Assembly (NCBI GenBank): GCA_015069045.1
Contig: SVJJ01000007.1
Location: 24,760-88,759, forward strand
Source of the DNA: Oscillospiraceae bacterium
GTDB taxonomy: Bacteria > Bacillota > Clostridia > UBA1381 > UBA9506
DNA: 64,000 nt
Direction of reading: 5' to 3'
Below, piece by piece: positions 7,356 through 48,870 of the stretch. The notes under the pieces are model-generated. The model did no database searches, was not told the DNA's origin, and saw nothing but the letters and a program-made list of their open reading frames with translations. Each line of letters begins with the position of its first letter. The stretch's first letter is position 1. Position numbers and translations under genes: made by a program.

Positions 7356-10300
7356 TTATACTTCAATTAAATTAACCATGGTTAAATCATTCTTTTTACA
7401 GCTGCTTTGTAAGCCCGCCAAAAATGCTTTAGCTGTATCTAAACTGGTTAAACAGGGAATAGACAACTCGACGGTTTTCCGCCTAATTTTAAAACCATCA
7501 CGTTCGGGCCGACGACCTTTTGTGGCTGTGTTAATCACCATGTTAAATCGTCCTTCCTGCAACAGATCCAAAATGTCTGGTGAGCCTTCACCAATTTTGG
7601 AAACCGTAGCTGAAACAACCCCATTTTTCATAAGAAACTCTGCTGTTCCGGCCGTGGAATAAATCTGATATCCCAATTCCCTAAAACCACGGGCAATATC
7701 CAATATTTCCTCTTTATCAGTATCACGTACTGTAATTAAAACATTTCCCGTTTCACTCATTTTAAAGCCTGCACCCAGCAAACCCTTATACAGTGCTTCA
7801 GAAAAATCGGTACTAATACCCAGCACCTCACCGGTGGACTTCATTTCAGGACCTAAGGAAATATCCACATCATGCAGTTTTTCAAAGGAGAACACAGGTA
7901 CCTTAACTGCAACGTGATTGCCCTCGGGATGCAATCCGGTACCACAGCCCATATCCTTTAATTTTTCACCCAATACGCAACGTGTAGCCAGGTCTACCAT
8001 GGGCACATTGGTTACTTTACTAATATAGGGTACCGTACGAGAGGAGCGGGGATTAACCTCAATAACATAAATTTCATCCTCATAGAGGACAAACTGAATA
8101 TTGACAAGACCCACTACATGCAGAGCCTTGGCTAATTTTTCTGTATAATTCACTAAGTCATCTCGAATTTTTTGAGTCAATGTAGGGGCAGGATATATCG
8201 AAATGGAATCACCGGAGTGAACACCGGCACGTTCCAAATGTTCCATAATACCTGGAATTAAAATATCAGTACCATCGCAAATGGCATCAACCTCAATTTC
8301 CTTGCCCATCATATATTTATCTATCAAAATGGGATGTTCCTGACGAATCATGGTGATAATATCCATAAATTCTTGAACGTCTTGGTCATTATAAGCAATT
8401 TCCATGCCTTGACCACCCAGTACATAAGAAGGACGAACCAATACGGGATAGCCCAATTCATTAGCTGCTTCTAAGGCTTCTTGATGTGTGAACACAGTTC
8501 GCCCCTCGGGACGGCGAATTTTGCAGGCTTCCAGAATGTCATCAAAGACCTCTCTATCCTCCGCCGCATCAATATCTTCCGCCTTTGTACCTAAAATACG
8601 CACACCCATATCCTTTAGGGCTTGGGTGAGTTTAATGGCAGTTTGACCACCAAACTGTACCAGCACGCCATCAGGTTGTTCAATCTCCAGAATATTGCCT
8701 ACATCCTCTGCCGTTAAAGGTTCAAAATACAACTTATCCGCCGTATCAAAATCGGTGGACACCGTTTCCGGATTATTGTTAATAATAATTGTTTCGTATC
8801 CTGCCTCTTTTAAAGCCCAAACGGCATGAACGGAGCAATAGTCGAATTCAATACCCTGACCAATACGAATAGGACCGGAGCCAATAACCACAATTTTCTT
8901 TTTTGCAGAAGATACCGTTTCCGTGTAGGAATCATAAGTGGAATAATAATAAGGCGTTACCGCTTCAAACTCTGCCGCACAGGTATCTACCATTTTGTAT
9001 ACCGGAAAAATGCTATGCAGCTCCCGCATAGCCCGTACCCCAATTTCTGAAATGCCGGAAAGACTTGCAATGAGTTTATCAGGAAAACTCATTTTTTTAG
9101 CTTCTGCCAATAATTCCGGCGTTAACTCCTCTTTCTCAAGGCGCAACTCCATATCCACTATATTTTTCAGCTTATGCAAGAAAAACAAGTCAATGGTGGT
9201 AATGGTGTGAATCATGTCAATATCCACATCTCTGCGAAATGCTTCACAGATAACGAAAAAGCGTTCATCATCCACTAAGGAAAGACGGCGCACAATATCT
9301 TTTTTAGAAAGTGCCTTTAGCTTTTTCAAATCATAGGATATAACACCCAGCTCTAAGCAACGGACAGCCTTCATTAAAGCACCCTCAATATTATCAGAAA
9401 TGGCCATAACTTCACCGGTAGCTTTCATCTGTGTCCCTAAGGTGCGTTTTGCTTTTACAAATTTATCAAAAGGCCATTTGGGAAATTTAATAACACAATA
9501 GTCAATGGCAGGTTCAAAGCAAGCACAGGTTTTGCCTGTTACGGCATTTACAATTTCATCTAAACCATATCCAATGGCAATCTTAGATGCCACCTTGGCA
9601 ATGGGATACCCTGTAGCCTTAGAAGCCAAAGCCGACGAACGAGATAAACGGGGATTAACTTCAATAACTGCATATTCAAAACTGTCGGGATGAAGAGCAA
9701 ATTGACAGTTACAACCACCTTCAATATCCAGAGCATGAATAATATTTAAGGAGGCCTTTCGTAACATTTGGTATTCTTTATCGCTTAAGGTTTGAGCCGG
9801 TGCAATTACCACAGAATCTCCTGTGTGAACACCCACCGGATCAATATTTTCCATGGAACAAACGGTAATAGCGTTACCCTTCCCGTCGCGAATAACCTCA
9901 AACTCAATTTCCTTCCAACCGGAAATACATTTTTCAATCAAAACCTGATGCACACGGGAAAGGCGAAGACCATTCGAGGCGATTTCCTGCAATTCTTGCT
10001 CATTGTTTGCAATACCGCCACCGGTACCACCTAAAGTATAAGCCGGACGAACAATAACAGGATAACCAATTTCATTGGCAAAGGATACAGCATCTTCGCA
10101 TGTTTCAACAACTAAAGAGGCAATGCAAGGCTCCCCAATGGACTCCATGGTATCTTTAAACGCTTGGCGGTCCTCGGCCATTTTAATTGCAGAAGTCGCT
10201 GTGCCCAAAAGGCGTACATTCATTTTATCAAGATACCCCTCTTCAGCTAATTCCATAGCTAAATTTAAACCTGTTTGCCCACCTAATGTTGGTAAAATAC

Positions 10301-10553
10301 TATCCGGTTTTTCAATTTCAATTACCTTGCGAACAGATTCAGCCACCAGGGGCTCTACATATATTTTATCCGCCATCATTTTATCAGTCATGATGGTAGC
10401 GGGATTGGAGTTAATTAAAACAACCTCAATACCCTCCTCTTGCAAGGCACGACAAGCCTGGGTCCCCGCATAGTCAAACTCTGCTGCCTGACCAATGACA
10501 ATGGGGCCGGAACCGATGACCAAAACTTTTTTAACATCTTGATACTTAGGCAT
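7356..10553 (-). CDS. carB: Carbamoyl-phosphate synthase large subunit
   Basis: 1065 aa with both ATP-grasp halves and C-terminal MGS-like domain. Confidence 0.97.
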   Translation of the reverse strand: MPKYQDVKKVLVIGSGPIVIGQAAEFDYAGTQACRALQEEGIEVVLINSNPATIMTDKMMADKIYVEPLVAESVRKVIEIEKPDSILPTLGGQTGLNLAMELAEEGYLDKMNVRLLGTATSAIKMAEDRQAFKDTMESIGEPCIASLVVETCEDAVSFANEIGYPVIVRPAYTLGGTGGGIANNEQELQEIASNGLRLSRVHQVLIEKCISGWKEIEFEVIRDGKGNAITVCSMENIDPVGVHTGDSVVIAPAQTLSDKEYQMLRKASLNIIHALDIEGGCNCQFALHPDSFEYAVIEVNPRLSRSSALASKATGYPIAKVASKIAIGYGLDEIVNAVTGKTCACFEPAIDYCVIKFPKWPFDKFVKAKRTLGTQMKATGEVMAISDNIEGALMKAVRCLELGVISYDLKKLKALSKKDIVRRLSLVDDERFFVICEAFRRDVDIDMIHTITTIDLFFLHKLKNIVDMELRLEKEELTPELLAEAKKMSFPDKLIASLSGISEIGVRAMRELHSIFPVYKMVDTCAAEFEAVTPYYYSTYDSYTETVSSAKKKIVVIGSGPIRIGQGIEFDYCSVHAVWALKEAGYETIIINNNPETVSTDFDTADKLYFEPLTAEDVGNILEIEQPDGVLVQFGGQTAIKLTQALKDMGVRILGTKAEDIDAAEDREVFDDILEACKIRRPEGRTVFTHQEALEAANELGYPVLVRPSYVLGGQGMEIAYNDQDVQEFMDIITMIRQEHPILIDKYMMGKEIEVDAICDGTDILIPGIMEHLERAGVHSGDSISIYPAPTLTQKIRDDLVNYTEKLAKALHVVGLVNIQFVLYEDEIYVIEVNPRSSRTVPYISKVTNVPMVDLATRCVLGEKLKDMGCGTGLHPEGNHVAVKVPVFSFEKLHDVDISLGPEMKSTGEVLGISTDFSEALYKGLLGAGFKMSETGNVLITVRDTDKEEILDIARGFRELGYQIYSTAGTAEFLMKNGVVSATVSKIGEGSPDILDLLQEGRFNMVINTATKGRRPERDGFKIRRKTVELSIPCLTSLDTAKAFLAGLQSSCKKNDLTMVNLIEV

Positions 10554-11628
10554 TGTGGTTTCCTCCCATCTTATTTACAAATTCGTCCAGTATATATGTC
10601 TCGTTTTTAGCTCCTGGCTTAGATTCAGGGTCAAACTGCACCGTAACAGCCGGTATGTCCACGTACCGAATACCTTCCATGGTTTGGTCATTTACATTGA
10701 TATGACTTACTTGGGCAACATGAGCACCTAAGCTGTTTTCTGTTACAGCATATCCATGATTCTGGAGTGTAACAAAGGTTTTGTCACAAGCCAAATCCTT
10801 AACCGGTTGATTGGCACCACGATGACCAAATTTTAATTTTTCCGTTTTACCACCCATAGCAAGAGCCGCCAATTGATGGCCCAGACCTACCCCGAAAAAT
10901 GGCTTACCTGATGTCATGAGGGACTTAATCTCAGGTAACATAGTCATGCATTCCTCCGGGTCGCCGGGGCCTCCGGCAACCATAATACCATTGGGATGTG
11001 TCGAAAGAATGTCTTGGGCTTTGGTCATGGCAGGGTAAACCGTCACTTTTGCGCCACGACTGGTTAGTGACGCAATCGTGCTGCGTTTTATACCAAAATC
11101 CAATAAAGCGACACTAATATCCCCTTCCCCTACGGTATAGGCCTTTTCACAGGTCACCTGTTCTACCATTGCCCCTACTTTATATGACTGAATTGCCTCA
11201 GCATAGTTCTCAAAACAAAAGGGCTCTTCTGTTGTAATAACGCCGTTCATGGCACCATTTGTTCGAATAATTTTCGTTAATGCTCTTGTATCAATACCGG
11301 TAATCGCTATCACATTTTCGCTGATTAAATATGATTCTAAAGTTTCCTGACTACGAAAGTTGTTGGGATGTGTTGCACATTCTTTCATGATGACAGCTTT
11401 AACCTGCACCTTATCCGACTCACAATCCTCACGATTAACGCCGGAATTTCCAATGACCGGATATGTCATAACAACCATTTGTCCTGCAAAGGAAGGGTCC
11501 GTTAATGTTTCTATATAACCGGTCATTCCAGTTGTAAATACAATTTCACCAATAACTGTTCCAGTGGCACCCAGGCTTTTACCCTCAAAAACAGTTCCGT
11601 CAGCCAATGCTAAATAAGCTTTCTTCAT
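10546..11628 (-). CDS. carA: Carbamoyl-phosphate synthase small subunit with degenerate glutaminase active site
   Basis: CarA N-domain plus class I GATase fold (GGPGDPE, LGHQLAALA, LQNHGYAV), but GVGLGHQ in place of GxCLGHQ and FDPE in place of HPE. Confidence 0.95.
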   Translation of the reverse strand: MKKAYLALADGTVFEGKSLGATGTVIGEIVFTTGMTGYIETLTDPSFAGQMVVMTYPVIGNSGVNREDCESDKVQVKAVIMKECATHPNNFRSQETLESYLISENVIAITGIDTRALTKIIRTNGAMNGVITTEEPFCFENYAEAIQSYKVGAMVEQVTCEKAYTVGEGDISVALLDFGIKRSTIASLTSRGAKVTVYPAMTKAQDILSTHPNGIMVAGGPGDPEECMTMLPEIKSLMTSGKPFFGVGLGHQLAALAMGGKTEKLKFGHRGANQPVKDLACDKTFVTLQNHGYAVTENSLGAHVAQVSHINVNDQTMEGIRYVDIPAVTVQFDPESKPGAKNETYILDEFVNKMGGNHNA

Positions 11629-11652: not shown

Positions 11653-12570
11653 TTATATATATCGTAAAATATCATCACGCATGCGAATGGCTTCCTCTCG
11701 TGCTGCTTCTCCATATTCCGTTGGTGCATAATCACCTTTTTGCCAGGCACACATAATGCCCCGAGAGGAATTAATAATAGCTCCCAGGCCATTTGCATCA
11801 AAAGCACCGGCTGTATCTTGACCGCCGCCGCCTTGAGCCCCATAACCGGGTACTAAAATATAGGATTTTGGCATTAGTTTACGCAATTCAGCCAGTTGTT
11901 TAGGATAGGTGGCGCCTACAACGGCCCCTACCGATGTATAGCCATATTTACCTTCTGACCCTTCGCCCCATTGATTCACCAAAGCTGCCATCTTTCTGTA
12001 AATCGGTTCGCCCTCTACCGCAAGGTCCTGCAACTCGCCAGAGGATGGATTAGAGGTTTTAACCAAGGCAAAAATGGTCCGTCCATAGGTTTTGCAATCG
12101 TTAACAAAAGGCAGGATACCATCGGTACCCAAATAACCATTTACTGTTAAACCGTCGCTGGCAAGCTCATTTTTAACAACAATGTCACCTGCATTCGTTT
12201 GACCTAAATAAGCCGCAGAATAGGCCTCTGCTGTTTTACCTATGTCATTTCGTTTACCATCTAAAATAACATACATTCCCTTTTTTTGTGCATAAGAAAT
12301 TGTTTCGGCCAAGGCCCACAATCCCCACAGACCATACATTTCATAATAAGCTGATTGAGGCTTTACCGCCGGCACAATGTCACACAGGGCATCAATGAGA
12401 CCCTGATTAAAAGCATATAGTGCCGCACCCACAGCTTGATTGGTTTTACCATGGGCATCAACAGCAGCCTGACGAATCTCCTCGGGAATGTACTCCCAAC
12501 GAGGGTCAAGACCTGCCACCGTTGGATTATTTTTTTCTTTAATATTTTCAATTAAACGATCAATGGACAT
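11653..12570 (-). CDS. pyrF: Orotidine 5'-phosphate decarboxylase (long form, type 2)
   Basis: 305 aa; VAGLDPRW and ILDGKRNDIG motifs. Confidence 0.92.
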   Translation of the reverse strand: MSIDRLIENIKEKNNPTVAGLDPRWEYIPEEIRQAAVDAHGKTNQAVGAALYAFNQGLIDALCDIVPAVKPQSAYYEMYGLWGLWALAETISYAQKKGMYVILDGKRNDIGKTAEAYSAAYLGQTNAGDIVVKNELASDGLTVNGYLGTDGILPFVNDCKTYGRTIFALVKTSNPSSGELQDLAVEGEPIYRKMAALVNQWGEGSEGKYGYTSVGAVVGATYPKQLAELRKLMPKSYILVPGYGAQGGGGQDTAGAFDANGLGAIINSSRGIMCAWQKGDYAPTEYGEAAREEAIRMRDDILRYI

Positions 12571-12596: not shown

Positions 12597-13883
12597 CTAT
12601 TGCATATCCGGGCTAATAACAACTTTACCATCTGCCAATGTGTACTCTACCTTACCATACAGTTCGTACCCGTTGTAAGGAGAATTTTTAGACTTAGATG
12701 CAAAGCTGCTTACATTGACCCGATAGGGATGTTCCATATCAAATATAACAATATCCGCTGCGGCGCCTTCCATCAACTGCCCTTTTTCAATGCCTAGAAT
12801 TTTAGCAGGCATGCAGGTCATTTTCTGTAATAATTCCTGCAAGGTCAGCTTGTCCTTTTTAACTAAATAGGTAATGCCTAAGCCTAAGGCGGTTTCAAAG
12901 CCCACAATACCATTGAGTGCCACAGCAAATTCTACATTTTTTTCATCCTCGTGATGTGGTGCATGGTCTGTGGCAATAACATCAATCGTGCCGTCTGCCA
13001 AGCCTGCAATAACAGCTAAAAGGTCCTTTTCTGTTCGCAGAGGCGGATTCATTTTTGCATTGGTATCATAGCCTTCCACCGCTTCTTCCGTCAGGGTAAA
13101 ATAGTGGGGACAGGTTTCTGCCGTTACACGAATACCCCTTGCCTTTGCCTGACGGATGATCTCTACGCTGCCGGCTGTGCTCACATGGGCAATATGAATG
13201 CGTTTGCCAAGTTCTCCTGCAATAATAACATCCCGTGCCACCTGTACTTCTTCCGCTGCATTGGGAATACCCTTAAGCCCCAATCGAGTGGACACAGCCC
13301 CTTCATTCATAGCGCCGTTTGCTAAGGACAAATCCTCACAGTGAGATATGACCAAGGTATCGAACATATCAGCATACTCTAAGGCACGGCGCATGAGTTC
13401 AGGGTTTGCCACCGGTCGACCATCGTCTGAAACGGCAACCGCACCTGCCTCACGCATATCTCCTATTTCGGCTAATTGCTCACCGGCCAGCCCCTTACTA
13501 ACAGCACCAATGGGCCAAACATGAACATGACCCACGGCAGCCGCCTTGCTCTTTACAAATTCAATCATGGCAGCATTATCTAAAACAGGGGCGGTGTTAG
13601 GCATACAAGCCACAGAGGTAAAACCACCCTTGGCTGCCGCCAGCGTTCCACTTTCTATATCTTCCTTATATTCCTGCCCCGGTTCCCGCAAATGACAATG
13701 CATGTCCACCAAACCAGGTGCCACTACCTTGCCGCTTGCATCGATCATGGTTGGATTTTCTGTTTCCGGAGCCAAATTTTCACCAATTTTTTGAATAACA
13801 CCATCTACAATTTGAATATCACAAACAGTATCAAAGTGGCGGGCAGGATCCATAACCCTACCACCCTTAATTAAAATTTCCAT
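12597..13883 (-). CDS. pyrC: Dihydroorotase
   Basis: DMHCHLREPGQEYKEDI and ATDHAPHH metal-binding motifs. Confidence 0.95.
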   Translation of the reverse strand: MEILIKGGRVMDPARHFDTVCDIQIVDGVIQKIGENLAPETENPTMIDASGKVVAPGLVDMHCHLREPGQEYKEDIESGTLAAAKGGFTSVACMPNTAPVLDNAAMIEFVKSKAAAVGHVHVWPIGAVSKGLAGEQLAEIGDMREAGAVAVSDDGRPVANPELMRRALEYADMFDTLVISHCEDLSLANGAMNEGAVSTRLGLKGIPNAAEEVQVARDVIIAGELGKRIHIAHVSTAGSVEIIRQAKARGIRVTAETCPHYFTLTEEAVEGYDTNAKMNPPLRTEKDLLAVIAGLADGTIDVIATDHAPHHEDEKNVEFAVALNGIVGFETALGLGITYLVKKDKLTLQELLQKMTCMPAKILGIEKGQLMEGAAADIVIFDMEHPYRVNVSSFASKSKNSPYNGYELYGKVEYTLADGKVVISPDMQ

Positions 13884-14808
13884 AGTGACCGCTCCTTTTT
13901 GCCAGAATATTTAAAACTGCCATGCGAACCGCCACACCGTTTGTGACCTGCTCATTAATCACGGCCCTGTCCAAACTCATTACGCCGCTGGTAAGTTCAA
14001 CCCCACGATTCACCGGTCCCGGATGCATGATAAGAGCATCGGGCTTTGCCAATGCTAATCGTTTTTCATCTACACCAAAGAACTTAGAATATTCTCGCAT
14101 ACTGGGAAGAAGACCATTTTGTTGTCTTTCCTTTTGCAAACGCAGGCACATGACAACATCTGCACCACGAAGAGCACTTTCCACATTTTCGTACACTTCC
14201 ACACCCAGAGTCGCAATATCTCGTGGTAGCAAGGTGGATGGTCCGCCAACAACAACTTCCGCCCCTAATTTTTGCAGGGCATATATATTAGAACGAGCCA
14301 CACGACTATGGGCAACATCTCCAATAATAGCTACGCGCAAACCTTCTATCTGCCCCTTTTTCTCCTTCATGGTCAGCAAATCTAAAAGAGCCTGGGTAGG
14401 GTGCTCATTCATACCATCTCCTGCGTTAATAACAGCCGCATTCACATTTTTTGCAATCAAATGTGGTGCGCCAGACATTTGATGACGAATAATGATAACA
14501 TCTGTCGCCATGGCATCTAAGGTTTTTGCCGTATCAATCAGGCTTTCACCCTTTTGCACGCTGGAACCCGAGGCTGTAATGTTAGCCGCATTGGCACTCA
14601 TATACTTAGAGGCCAATTCAAAAGAAAGACGTGTCCGGGTGCTGTTTTCATAAAACAGAGTAACCACCGTTCTGCCTTGTAAGTGAGGGGTTTTTTTAGC
14701 ATCCTGCAACAGGATATGTTTCATGATTTCAGCTTGGTATAAAATATAGCGAATTTCCTCTGCCGAAAGTTCCTTCATTCCTAATAAATCTTTTGTTGCC
14801 AGTTTCAT
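13867..14808 (-). CDS. pyrB: Aspartate carbamoyltransferase catalytic subunit
   Basis: [13 protein letters not shown] and [11 protein letters not shown] motifs. Confidence 0.96.
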
Positions 14809-15368
14809 TCTTTACCCTCCCCGCATCCATGCAGTTTCCCTAAGGAAACCTCATTATATCCATCTAATTCATTAAAGCAAACATGCACAATCTCATTTCT
14901 GGAGGTTGGCATATTTTTGCCTACATAATCTGCGCGAATAGGCAATTCCCTATGACCCCTATCGACCATAACCGCCAATTCAATTTTAGCTGCACGTCCC
15001 AGCTCCATAACCGCTTCAATGGCGGCTCTGACCGTACGTCCGGTGAATAACACATCATCCACCAAAATAATTTTTTTACCAATCACCATAAAATCTATAT
15101 TTGTACTATTAATGACAGGCATTTCAGATAGTAAACTCAAATCATCCCGATGAAAGGTTATATCTAAAATACCCATGGGCGGTTCTATACCCTCTAATTC
15201 CTGCAATCGTTTTTGCAGACGATTTGCCATTAAAACGCCACGACGCTGAATACCAATTAAAGCTAAATTTTCGATGCCTTTATTTTTTTCAATAATCTCA
15301 AATGCAATTCTGGTAATGGCTCGTTGCATGGCAGCTTCATCCATAATAATAGAACGTTTTGTTTCCAT
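14805..15368 (-). CDS. pyrR: Bifunctional pyr operon regulator/uracil phosphoribosyltransferase
   Basis: [29 protein letters not shown] loop [16 protein letters not shown]; start ATG at 15368 preceded by aaggagg. Confidence 0.94.
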
Positions 15369-15392
15369 AGGTAACCTCCTTAAATAAAAAAT

Positions 15393-15419
15393 GTCCCTAC
15401 CGCACAATGCGATAAGGAC
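15393..15419 (-). terminator. pyr operon leader terminator (attenuator)
   Basis: Minus strand GUCCUUAUCGCA-UUG-UGCGGUAGGGAC (12-bp stem including G-U pairs) followed by AUUUUUUAU, upstream of pyrR. Confidence 0.82.
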
Positions 15420-37981: not shown

Positions 37982-39079
37982 ATGGAAATTATTTACGAAA
38001 ATGTTATGCAAATTACCTGGCAACAGATGGTCATGTGGGTAATTGGTGCTGTGCTGATTTATCTTGCAATTAAAAAGGATATGGAGCCAACACTTTTGTT
38101 GCCTATGGGTTTTGGCGCCATTTTGGTCAACTTGCCGAATTCCGGTGCAGTTGAGACAGTTAAGACCTTATTTGAGGCCGGTATTTCAAATGAGTTATTT
38201 CCCTTAATTTTGTTTATAGGCATTGGTGCTATGATTGACTTTGGCCCTTTGCTTTCCAACCCTAAATTAATGATATTTGGTGCCGCGGCACAATTCGGTA
38301 TTTTCTTTACCCTCTGCGTTGCTTCCATGTTTTTTGGTCTTAACGATGCAGCTTCTATTGCTATCATCGGCGCGGCAGATGGCCCTACCTCCATTGTTGT
38401 TGCTCAAAAACTTAATTCAAATTATTTAGGTGCCATCATGGTGGCTGCTTATTCCTATATGGCCTTGGTACCCATTATTCAGCCGCCGGTTATCCGGGCA
38501 CTGACAACCAAAAAAGAACGTTTGATTCGTATGCCCTATGCACAAAAAACAGTTTCCCAGAGAACTAAAATTCTATTCCCCATTATTATTACAATTATTG
38601 CCGGTTTGGTTGCGCCTGAATCTGTGGCTTTGATTGGCTTTTTAATGTTTGGCAACCTAATTCGGGAGTGTGGCGTGCTCAATTCCCTCTCTGAAACAGC
38701 TCAAAAAGTGCTGGCAAACCTGATTACTATTTTCTTAGGTATTACCATTGCCTTTAAAATGCAAGCTGCCGATTTTTTAGCCGTTGACACCTTACTGATT
38801 TTAGGTCTGGGTTTGGTGGCATTTATTGTTGATACAGCCGGTGGTGTATTGTTCGCCAAGTTCCTGAATCTCTTTTTAAAGAATGGTAATAAAATTAACC
38901 CCATGATTGGCGCAGCCGGTATATCCGCCTTCCCCATGTCTGGACGTGTTGTGCATAAAATGGGTCTTAAGGAAGACCCCCAAAACTTCCTGCTGATGCA
39001 CTCTATTGGTGTGAACGTATCCGGCCAGATTGCTTCCGTTATTGCCGGCGGTTTAATTTTAAATTTCTTTATGGGTTAA
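37982..39079 (+). CDS. Sodium-ion-translocating decarboxylase beta subunit (OadB/GcdB family)
   Basis: 365 aa polytopic; GAADGPTSI and GRVVHKMG motifs of the beta-subunit family. Confidence 0.93.
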   Translation: MEIIYENVMQITWQQMVMWVIGAVLIYLAIKKDMEPTLLLPMGFGAILVNLPNSGAVETVKTLFEAGISNELFPLILFIGIGAMIDFGPLLSNPKLMIFGAAAQFGIFFTLCVASMFFGLNDAASIAIIGAADGPTSIVVAQKLNSNYLGAIMVAAYSYMALVPIIQPPVIRALTTKKERLIRMPYAQKTVSQRTKILFPIIITIIAGLVAPESVALIGFLMFGNLIRECGVLNSLSETAQKVLANLITIFLGITIAFKMQAADFLAVDTLLILGLGLVAFIVDTAGGVLFAKFLNLFLKNGNKINPMIGAAGISAFPMSGRVVHKMGLKEDPQNFLLMHSIGVNVSGQIASVIAGGLILNFFMG

Positions 39080-46080: not shown

Positions 46081-48870
46081 TCATTCGATTGTATTTTGTT
46101 GTTCCCGCAACGCTTCCATTTTTTCTTCCAGCTCATCCATATTTTCTCCCATAGCACGCCAATCTTGCATGCGGGTGGATTCTTGCAAACGATCATACGC
46201 CTCCAACAAACGGTCGACTGCTGCTTCAAGCCCTTGCACTTCCTGGTTTGTAAGGGGAGAGGTTTCCGGATTTTCTGTATTGCCATTGCTCCCATCCTGC
46301 TCCGCAGCAAAAACAGAACGCAAAGCCCCCTCCAAAGTAGGTTCCATAGCTATGCGTTCCCCATAGCTAACTACAATCCGTTTTAATTCCGGTAATGAGG
46401 CATTGTTGTGGGAGGTAATGTAGACCGGCTCTACATATAAAAGGGAATTCCGAAAGGGTACCACAAGTAAATTACCTCGAATAACGCTGGACCCGCCCTG
46501 CCCCCATAAGGTCATTTCCCGGGAAATATCCGGGTCGTTATCAATACGATTTTCTATCTGCATAGGACCGTAGACGGTTTCATTTTTAGGAAATCTGAAT
46601 AAAATTAACTCTCCATAATGATCTGGTGCATTTCGTTGTACCAAAAGGCTCACCATATTGTATTTCCCCTGGATAACAAAGGGACGCATTAGAACCATTT
46701 CATCGGCTCCATCAATTTCCATAATATTGTAATAGGGTGCCATCGGAATCTCATTATCCTGATATTTCTCCGTAGCAATATCCCAAACATCGGCACGATC
46801 ATAAAACTGGCCTGCATCTTGTACATGATATTGCTGATATACATGGGACTGCACATTAAACAGCGCCTCCGGCACACGTATATGGTTGGCAATGCCATCA
46901 GGGAGGGTTTCACCCGCAAATAACTTCGGATAAATGTTCCGATAGGCACAGGCAATCGGGTCAGTGGGATCTGTTAAATACAGTGCCACATCTCCGGTAT
47001 AGGCGCTCACAACAGCTGTCACAGAATTTCGAATATAGTTGATCCCATCGTATGGTTGTGCATAGGGATAATGAGAGGATGTGGTATAACCGTTTACAAT
47101 CCAATACAAATTTCCATCATCGGAAATAACTAGATAAGGGTCATCATCTAAGGATATAAATGGTGCGACCATGCCCACTCGATCCAACACATTCCGATTT
47201 AGTAATAAACGGCTTTCACCGTCTATATTGCCGGAAAATAACATTCTGTAATCCTTATAATGCCAGGCAAACATCAATCGTTTGAAAAAATTGAGTGTAA
47301 CACCCGAGTCACCATCATAAGTAAACTCTATATCCTCAAGGCCTTCCGAATAATCCAATTCCTTATTCCCTGCGCCTACAATAACATAATCGTTGGTCAG
47401 TTCTCCATAGTAAATGCGTGGCTGCGTAATGGTAGGCATACCACCGGTAGAAACAGGGGGTATATCACGAATTAAAAATTCAGGTTGTCCCTCCTCCGTA
47501 ACCCGATTAACCGGACTGGCTACAGCACCAAAACCATGGGTATAACGGAAAATTTGGTTCGCATAGGACTTAGCAGAGCTATCCAGATTTTCTTTATTCA
47601 TTTCCCGGGCAGCTAAAAAGACAACATTTTGTTTGCCATCCAGCTCGTAGGGAGCCACATCTACATCATAGAAGCTATAATATTTTCGCAGAAATTGAAG
47701 CTGATTATATGCCGTTAGAGTAGAACCAAAATCAGCTATACGCGTTCCGGCCAGCCATGTATCATCTTCACCTATAACCTCTTGCGACAAATTATATTGA
47801 GGCACAAATTCAGTTTCCGATACCGCATCAAGACCAAAGGCGTGTCTGGTTGCCTCTATATTATGCGCAATATACGTACTTTGTAAATTACGCTCATTGG
47901 GACTGACAATAAAAGAATCTGTTGCAGAGGTTACAACGCTCATCACCAAAAAAAACACCGGAAGTACGCCTAAAGACAATAGGGATAACCAATATTTTTT
48001 TCGATATAAGAACAATACAACCAGGGCAATAGACACACCAACAACAAAGGGAGCGAAGGTATAATAGTGGCGCCAAATATTTGCCTCTACATAGCCGGCA
48101 CCAAAAATTTCATTTTGGGCACCAAAAGTAGAGAACAGCAAATTTTCTGCGGAAAATTTATACGTAAACATAGACAAAAGAAAATACAAAATTGCCAAAC
48201 TGACAACATGGATTACGGCCTCACTCTCCCCAACCACAATCTCCCGCAAGCTTTTATGGCCATTTTTTATAAAAATAATTAAATATACAGCCATTGCTAT
48301 AACCATAAGAAGTAAAAGTAAACTCTTGCCACCATTGACCAAACTGATAAGGAAGGGGCGGAGGAACATATAATATCCAACATCCTGACCAAAAAGAGGA
48401 TCTATAGTGTTAAATTTTTGGCCATTGGTGGCCAGTAGAAATTTTTGATATAAATTGCCCCCTGCTAAGTTGCTTAACGATAAAGCAAATATAAGACACA
48501 AAAGGACATATGGCCACTTTTTTTGTAAAAATCTTGCAGAAAAATTCGGCTCTATTCCTATTTTTTTAACAATAAAAACATTTACTAACAGAATCAAAAA
48601 AATCAGGATAAAACCAACAGACTGGGTGATGGCACGAGCCGTTAAATTTGTTATATATAAAGAGGTGTACGCAGAGCCAATTTCCTCTATTTGCCAATAT
48701 TCCATAAGCATATGATAAAGGGGCGACAGCACAAAGGCCAAAAGTGCCACTATGATAACCACAATGCCCCAAGCTTTGACTTTCCCCTTTTTAAAGTTCA
48801 TCATCGTTTCTTTAAAGTCGTGACTGTTGCTTTCAAAACCATTCCACGAAGTTTGAGAAAAATTGTCCAT
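46081..48870 (-). CDS. UPF0182 family membrane protein
   Basis: 929 aa; N-terminal TM helices and long extracellular domain (ATRHAFGLD, GAVASPVNRV, PRIYYGE) typical of UPF0182. Confidence 0.9.
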   Translation of the reverse strand: MDNFSQTSWNGFESNSHDFKETMMNFKKGKVKAWGIVVIIVALLAFVLSPLYHMLMEYWQIEEIGSAYTSLYITNLTARAITQSVGFILIFLILLVNVFIVKKIGIEPNFSARFLQKKWPYVLLCLIFALSLSNLAGGNLYQKFLLATNGQKFNTIDPLFGQDVGYYMFLRPFLISLVNGGKSLLLLLMVIAMAVYLIIFIKNGHKSLREIVVGESEAVIHVVSLAILYFLLSMFTYKFSAENLLFSTFGAQNEIFGAGYVEANIWRHYYTFAPFVVGVSIALVVLFLYRKKYWLSLLSLGVLPVFFLVMSVVTSATDSFIVSPNERNLQSTYIAHNIEATRHAFGLDAVSETEFVPQYNLSQEVIGEDDTWLAGTRIADFGSTLTAYNQLQFLRKYYSFYDVDVAPYELDGKQNVVFLAAREMNKENLDSSAKSYANQIFRYTHGFGAVASPVNRVTEEGQPEFLIRDIPPVSTGGMPTITQPRIYYGELTNDYVIVGAGNKELDYSEGLEDIEFTYDGDSGVTLNFFKRLMFAWHYKDYRMLFSGNIDGESRLLLNRNVLDRVGMVAPFISLDDDPYLVISDDGNLYWIVNGYTTSSHYPYAQPYDGINYIRNSVTAVVSAYTGDVALYLTDPTDPIACAYRNIYPKLFAGETLPDGIANHIRVPEALFNVQSHVYQQYHVQDAGQFYDRADVWDIATEKYQDNEIPMAPYYNIMEIDGADEMVLMRPFVIQGKYNMVSLLVQRNAPDHYGELILFRFPKNETVYGPMQIENRIDNDPDISREMTLWGQGGSSVIRGNLLVVPFRNSLLYVEPVYITSHNNASLPELKRIVVSYGERIAMEPTLEGALRSVFAAEQDGSNGNTENPETSPLTNQEVQGLEAAVDRLLEAYDRLQESTRMQDWRAMGENMDELEEKMEALREQQNTIE

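Follow-up and report, generated by a model that had tools for sequence, protein, structure and literature searches.

A predicted glutaminase-dead CarA and probable ammonia-dependent pyrimidine synthesis in a clostridial lineage

Introduction

How does a bacterium make carbamoyl phosphate when the only small subunit of its carbamoyl-phosphate synthetase (CPSase), CarA, lacks both of the residues that hydrolyse glutamine? This question is raised by a pyrimidine operon in the window, the whole 64,000-nucleotide stretch of DNA from an Oscillospiraceae bacterium that we analysed. In E. coli, Cys269 and His353 of CarA are essential to glutamine hydrolysis, and CarB forms carbamoyl phosphate from ammonia (PMC6245113). 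Glutamine is nevertheless taken as the donor in all bacterial CPSases, because the E. coli ammonia reaction requires very high concentrations and is thought to be physiologically irrelevant, a point that counts against an ammonia-based reading of the present locus (PMC6245113). Human CPS1 has lost the same Cys and retains the Cys-less glutaminase domain in an ammonia enzyme (PMC4655335), and CTP synthase accepts exogenous NH3 (PMC9138612).

Results

The single CarA lacks both catalytic residues

The carA reading frame starts with ATG and has zero internal stops, and its translation includes the stretches KPFFGVGLGHQ and VQFDPESKPG. In an alignment to E. coli CarA, Gly248 stands at Cys269 and Asp333 at His353 (Table 1); the preliminary description of this DNA had claimed both substitutions as well as an intact frame, and all three are confirmed. 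Homology to the TIGR01368/PRK12838 models extends over the full length of the protein, which scores 449.5 bits against NF009475 (cut-off 221) and 423.7 bits against TIGR01368 (cut-off 307) and carries the Pfam domains CPSase_sm_chain and GATase. This member of the CarA family has neither the Cys nucleophile nor the catalytic His of a glutamine-hydrolysing CarA, and it has the combination expected of an ammonia-dependent CPSase, a glutaminase domain that is present and a nucleophile that is missing. The glutamine pocket is mostly retained in this species, with the equivalents of Ser47, Lys202, Leu270, Gln273, Asn311 and Gly313 in place. We looked for the second, intact carA that the preliminary description had proposed as a check and found none in this genome (1.48 Mb, 26 contigs, 97.5% complete), leaving this CarA as the sole copy.

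Table 1. Features of the window (positions counted from its first letter)
Feature	Position	Strand	Remarks
carB, large (synthetase) subunit	7356..10553	-	1065 aa; 8-base overlap with the end of carA
carA, carbamoyl-phosphate synthetase small (glutaminase) subunit	10546..11628	-	360 aa, predicted catalytically dead
Asp333 codon gac	10630..10632	-	replaces catalytic His (E. coli His353), motif VQFDPE
Gly248 codon ggt	10885..10887	-	replaces nucleophilic Cys (E. coli Cys269), motif GVGLGHQ
pyrF, orotidine-5'-phosphate decarboxylase	11653..12570	-	operon neighbour; named by reading the sequence
pyrC, dihydroorotase	12597..13883	-	operon neighbour; named by reading the sequence
pyrB, aspartate carbamoyltransferase	13867..14808	-	carbamoyl phosphate user; named by reading the sequence
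pyrR-like phosphoribosyltransferase/regulator	14805..15407	-	operon head; PF00156
recF and dnaA	19935..22615	-	close together
Sodium-translocating decarboxylase beta subunit	37982..39079	+
UPF0182 protein (PF03699)	46081..48870	-	929 aa, uncharacterised family

The genes of the operon are ordered pyrR-pyrB-pyrC-pyrF-carA-carB, and this order is conserved in the examined members of the genus and in four genomes of the sister genus g4, the contig of one genus member ending before carB. CarB aligns along E. coli CarB with the catalytic motifs intact, so that CarA has an adjacent partner with two intact ATP-grasp halves. Neither pyrD nor pyrE was found among the window genes examined.

Elsewhere in the window, the adjacency of recF and dnaA indicates that a replication origin is probably close by, and hence not far from the pyr operon. 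The sodium-translocating decarboxylase beta subunit points to an anaerobic decarboxylating energy metabolism, and a large protein of the family UPF0182 is also encoded.

The catalytic residues were lost repeatedly among relatives

We aligned CarA orthologues at positions 269 and 353, as the preliminary description had proposed, and found both sites lost repeatedly (the residue at the Cys site is given before the slash and that at the His site after it). Ten genus members were compared, including this genome, which shares G/D with G005, G006 and G008; G004 and G007 have G/A, G003 has D/H, G001 has S/H, and G002 has G at the Cys site with the His end missing. Within the genus C/H is found only in G009, and this retention of both residues is evidence against the ammonia reading. 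In sister genus g4, G014 has G/S, and G015 and G016 keep Cys and His with other pocket positions changed; genus g3 has A/N and G/Y, and the rest of the order shows G/S, G/Q, G/H, S/L and A/I. Among 80 named outgroup loci, His is kept in all 80 and Cys is missing only in L100.

These substitutions bear on two alternative explanations. An assembly, binning or sequencing error might be suspected in metagenome-type draft contigs, but the identical or other substitutions in related species exclude the assembly error that the preliminary description had asked about: the same G/D pair occurs in three other species, related losses are spread across many genera, two sites are hit in a perfect frame, and the distribution tracks the CarA tree. 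We therefore attach practically no weight to such an error. It is also conceivable that the altered site hydrolyses glutamine through some other mechanism, as most of the glutamine-pocket residues remain in this species; yet at the lost sites the residue that replaces Cys varies among relatives (G, A, S, D or E), other pocket residues vary in several of these relatives, with no common new nucleophile, and both Cys269 and His353 are essential in E. coli (PMC6245113). We regard this mechanism as highly improbable.

A scan of 392 genomes sampled across the class with the codon pattern G-[IVM]-[GADVE]-[LF]-G-H-Q gave matches in 51 genomes, against 9 for a reversed control. Many of the matches were other genes and were eliminated by tblastn, which confirmed a Cys-less CarA in 26 genomes from 16 families outside the order, in addition to G000 (this genome) and G084. 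Cys-less CarA is thus present in at least 28 of the 392 species, mostly as the sole copy, and this count is a lower bound because the pattern omits Ser and other replacements. In most of the 26 genomes the decayed CarA is the only copy, and in five a second copy was confirmed to be intact.

Several genomes carry one decayed and one intact CarA: G031 (L152/L153, where the decayed copy is A/T), G420 (L395/L421) and G202 (L313/L392). Such pairs suggest either separate arginine and pyrimidine synthetases or a replacement under way. Genus g80 presents a second genus-wide loss, with His replaced by Asn: GIGLGHQ and VQFNIE are found in all five CarA proteins examined (L382-L386; G204, G289, G309, G153 and G249). 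In genus g81, GMAFGMQ pattern matches fall on loci that also match the CarA N-terminus (L360-L362; G251, G155 and G206).

On a CarA tree built with the active-site columns left out, the state of the Cys changes at least 20 times and that of the His 17 times, the figure of 20 being specific to these rows, which are enriched for lost cases, and not a rate. The His is absent from 26 of 42 Cys-less rows versus none of 63 Cys-bearing rows, and none of the phylogenetically independent pairs runs in the opposite direction (sign test, median p 0.004). Parsimony by itself does not separate losses from gains; we take the changes to be losses because the outgroups are mostly intact and the replacing letters vary.

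The predicted dead CarA is relaxed but still constrained

In pairs that had already lost both residues, the GATase half gave dN/dS values of 0.04 for G005/G008 and 0.06 for G004/G007, similar to those of the N-terminal half; wider pairs, which likewise lack Cys and His, reach 0.12-0.13. Synonymous sites are partly saturated in these comparisons. The purifying selection whose test the preliminary description had called for is therefore visible in the remaining domain, and such low values after the loss make CarA unlike a pseudogene. At the same time, the ratio of CarA to CarB protein distance is 3.4-fold in the genus and 5.8-fold in g4, compared with a median of 1.1 (range 0.7-1.7) for outgroup pairs, and CarA is also fast in comparison with PyrB and PyrC. 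An evolution 3-6 times faster than that of CarB means that the constraint on CarA is relaxed but still present. The statement that the rest of CarA is well conserved consequently stands for the intact, selected frame but not for the rate of change. The acceleration extends to pairs with G009 and G017, which both still have Cys and His, and this suggests that the constraint was relaxed ahead of the residue losses.

The AlphaFold model of CarA (pLDDT 91.2) has the small subunit of 1jdb as its best PDB match, with a TM score of 0.95, and human CPS1 as the next. The tunnel-wall residue Gly359 (E. coli numbering) is kept. At position 293 both intact and lost genus members have Ala, where CPS1 has a blocking Gln. 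Taken with its rates, CarA is a relaxed scaffold.

CTP synthase has lost its nucleophile in the same genus

A search with PF00117 found only three class I GATase genes in this genome, those for CarA, PyrG and HisH. PyrG (L203, G000:C22:53912-55492, minus strand, outside the window) is a full-length CTP synthase (TIGR00337, 829 bits) that reads GISLGMQ in place of the usual GICLGMQ. The nucleophile, equivalent to E. coli Cys379, is Ser here and Ser or Gly in all eight genus members that have PyrG. This Cys is also lost in G019, in G092 and, in G093, in one PyrG out of two, and all other PyrGs of the order examined with a readable site keep it. The dN/dS of the PyrG GATase half is 0.03-0.05, comparable to intact controls. 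Since PyrG is affected too, the scope of the finding is pyrimidine nitrogen and not CarA alone.

The other amidotransferases were spared: HisH has Cys and His intact in 18 of 18 family members examined, and the N-terminal Cys of PurF and GlmS is intact in those examined. Their retained Cys rules out a general decay of amidotransferases; judged by active-site residues, only the two enzymes of pyrimidine synthesis, CarA and PyrG, are affected among those examined. GlmS uses free ammonia poorly, which agrees with its having kept the Cys. PurF accepts ammonia in vitro, and the ammonia argument does not explain why its Cys is retained.

The idea that CarA and PyrG are lost together as a class-wide rule was considered and found unsupported: one PyrG loss outside the order was confirmed (L373), by a class-wide pattern that misses Ser replacements. 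Going by the sequences compared, the co-loss is near-fixed in this genus and occurs once more in G092, with no general rule. In L373 (G263), PyrG reads GIGLGMQ and its His is changed too (VLFQPE); no CarA was found in G263, a 96%-complete genome.

The PF00117 search also bears on the idea that ammonia is supplied in trans, by another glutaminase that docks on CarAB and substitutes for the dead site. The retained CarA fold and tunnel-wall Gly359 would agree with it. We consider it very unlikely, given that two of the three PF00117 proteins have no nucleophile and the third, HisH, is dedicated to histidine, and that the docking site is still occupied by the dead GATase domain.

Other sources of carbamoyl phosphate and of glutamine were also considered. 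Carbamate kinase gave weak matches only in this genome, none above the ArcC cut-off, so that there is no evident bypass, and we reject a rescue by this enzyme. Glutamine synthetase has one match here, to a frame of 717 aa, a size like that of GSIII, which speaks against a general loss of glutamine synthesis; most relatives also have a GlnA-like one. G003, of the same genus (93% complete), shows neither a glutamine-synthetase domain match nor PyrG.

PyrG was undetected in several family members, and with these relatives in mind pyrimidine synthesis may be shrinking; the fast evolution of CarA possibly reflects partial decay. Carried further, the same observations, together with the small genomes, could be read as a pathway in decay, with CarAB and PyrG drifting to loss through pyrimidine salvage and arginine uptake and now in early pseudogenisation. 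Every frame is intact, though, the pyrR-B-C-F-carA-carB order is conserved in two genera, and dN/dS is low not only in CarA (0.04-0.13) and the PyrG GATase half but also in CarB (0.02 in relatives). Decay would not, moreover, hit CarA and PyrG at their glutaminase sites yet spare their synthetase parts, and we judge it unlikely.

Discussion

The evidence above favours the reading in which CarAB is a natural ammonia-dependent CPSase that keeps a dead CarA, with PyrG likewise freed from glutamine, and we hold this to be very probable. The carbamoyl nitrogen and the cytosine 4-amino group would then probably both come from free ammonia. Under the mechanism that we propose, CarA would be unable to hydrolyse glutamine and would persist as a folded protein that partners CarB, with CarB taking NH3 from the cytosol; the dead domains would be retained for folding, possibly also as an entry path for NH3, and glutamine would remain the donor for HisH, PurF and GlmS. 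We infer that ammonia is the physiological substrate and that high intracellular ammonia is the permissive condition, and the niche, as the preliminary description had supposed, would be ammonia-rich and amino-acid-fermenting.

As to the course of events, the constraint on CarA may have been relaxed in the ancestor of g1 and g4, followed by several independent losses of the Cys and then by loss of the His. On a wider scale, we think it rather likely that the lineage moved its carbamoyl phosphate and CTP steps to free ammonia through repeated, independent nucleophile loss in CarA and PyrG, with selection still acting on the glutaminases that serve the histidine, purine and cell-wall pathways, and that the CarA half of this move took place at least 20 times in Clostridia-like bacteria.

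The closest known parallel is vertebrate CPS1, with which the preliminary description had compared this CarA, and the comparison holds up: there too a folded glutaminase-like domain outlives the loss of its catalytic Cys (Ser294 in human CPS1), in an enzyme that uses free ammonia (PMC4655335). CPS1 differs in being fused, mitochondrial, part of the urea cycle and dependent on N-acetylglutamate, whereas here carA and carB are separate genes in a pyrimidine operon. In CPS1, moreover, Gln blocks the old tunnel and Cys to Ser is the change reported for the triad, whereas here Ala occupies the tunnel position and the His has been lost as well. E. coli CarAB (1JDB) has the same subunits and domains, the predicted CarA fold and the same CarB catalytic motifs, but both its nucleophile and its catalytic His are missing here, where CarA also evolves faster relative to CarB. 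In the E. coli CarA mutant C269S (1C30) the nucleophile is replaced and the fold unchanged; the present change is natural, fixed in the species, to Gly, and accompanied by a second lost residue. The PyrG of the genus is full-length like glutamine-dependent CTP synthase, but has Ser or Gly at its Cys379 equivalent. In the carbamate-kinase route of Pyrococcus, carbamoyl phosphate likewise does not come from glutamine (PMC6245113), but through a different enzyme, one that has no match above cut-off here.

The enzyme families and the CPS1-like mode are already known; the natural glutaminase-dead CarA and PyrG of bacteria appear to be the new part, as we found no report of either in the open-licence literature, and nothing relevant there on bacterial CPSases or CTP synthases that are naturally dependent on ammonia. 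To our knowledge, bacteria are generally thought not to make pyrimidines from free ammonia.

If ammonia is indeed used, the view stated in a review, that glutamine is the preferred physiological donor of nitrogen, would fail for roughly 7% or more of the species sampled in the class, with fewer species to be counted where a second CarA copy is intact. Names in databases that include 'glutamine-hydrolyzing' would be wrong for these species, and metabolic models of anaerobes would require change. The many independent losses beside intact sisters form a natural series on the conversion of a channelled amidotransferase to ammonia, otherwise known chiefly from vertebrate CPS1, and a dead CarA may help to recognise, from the genome, bacteria with high intracellular ammonia.
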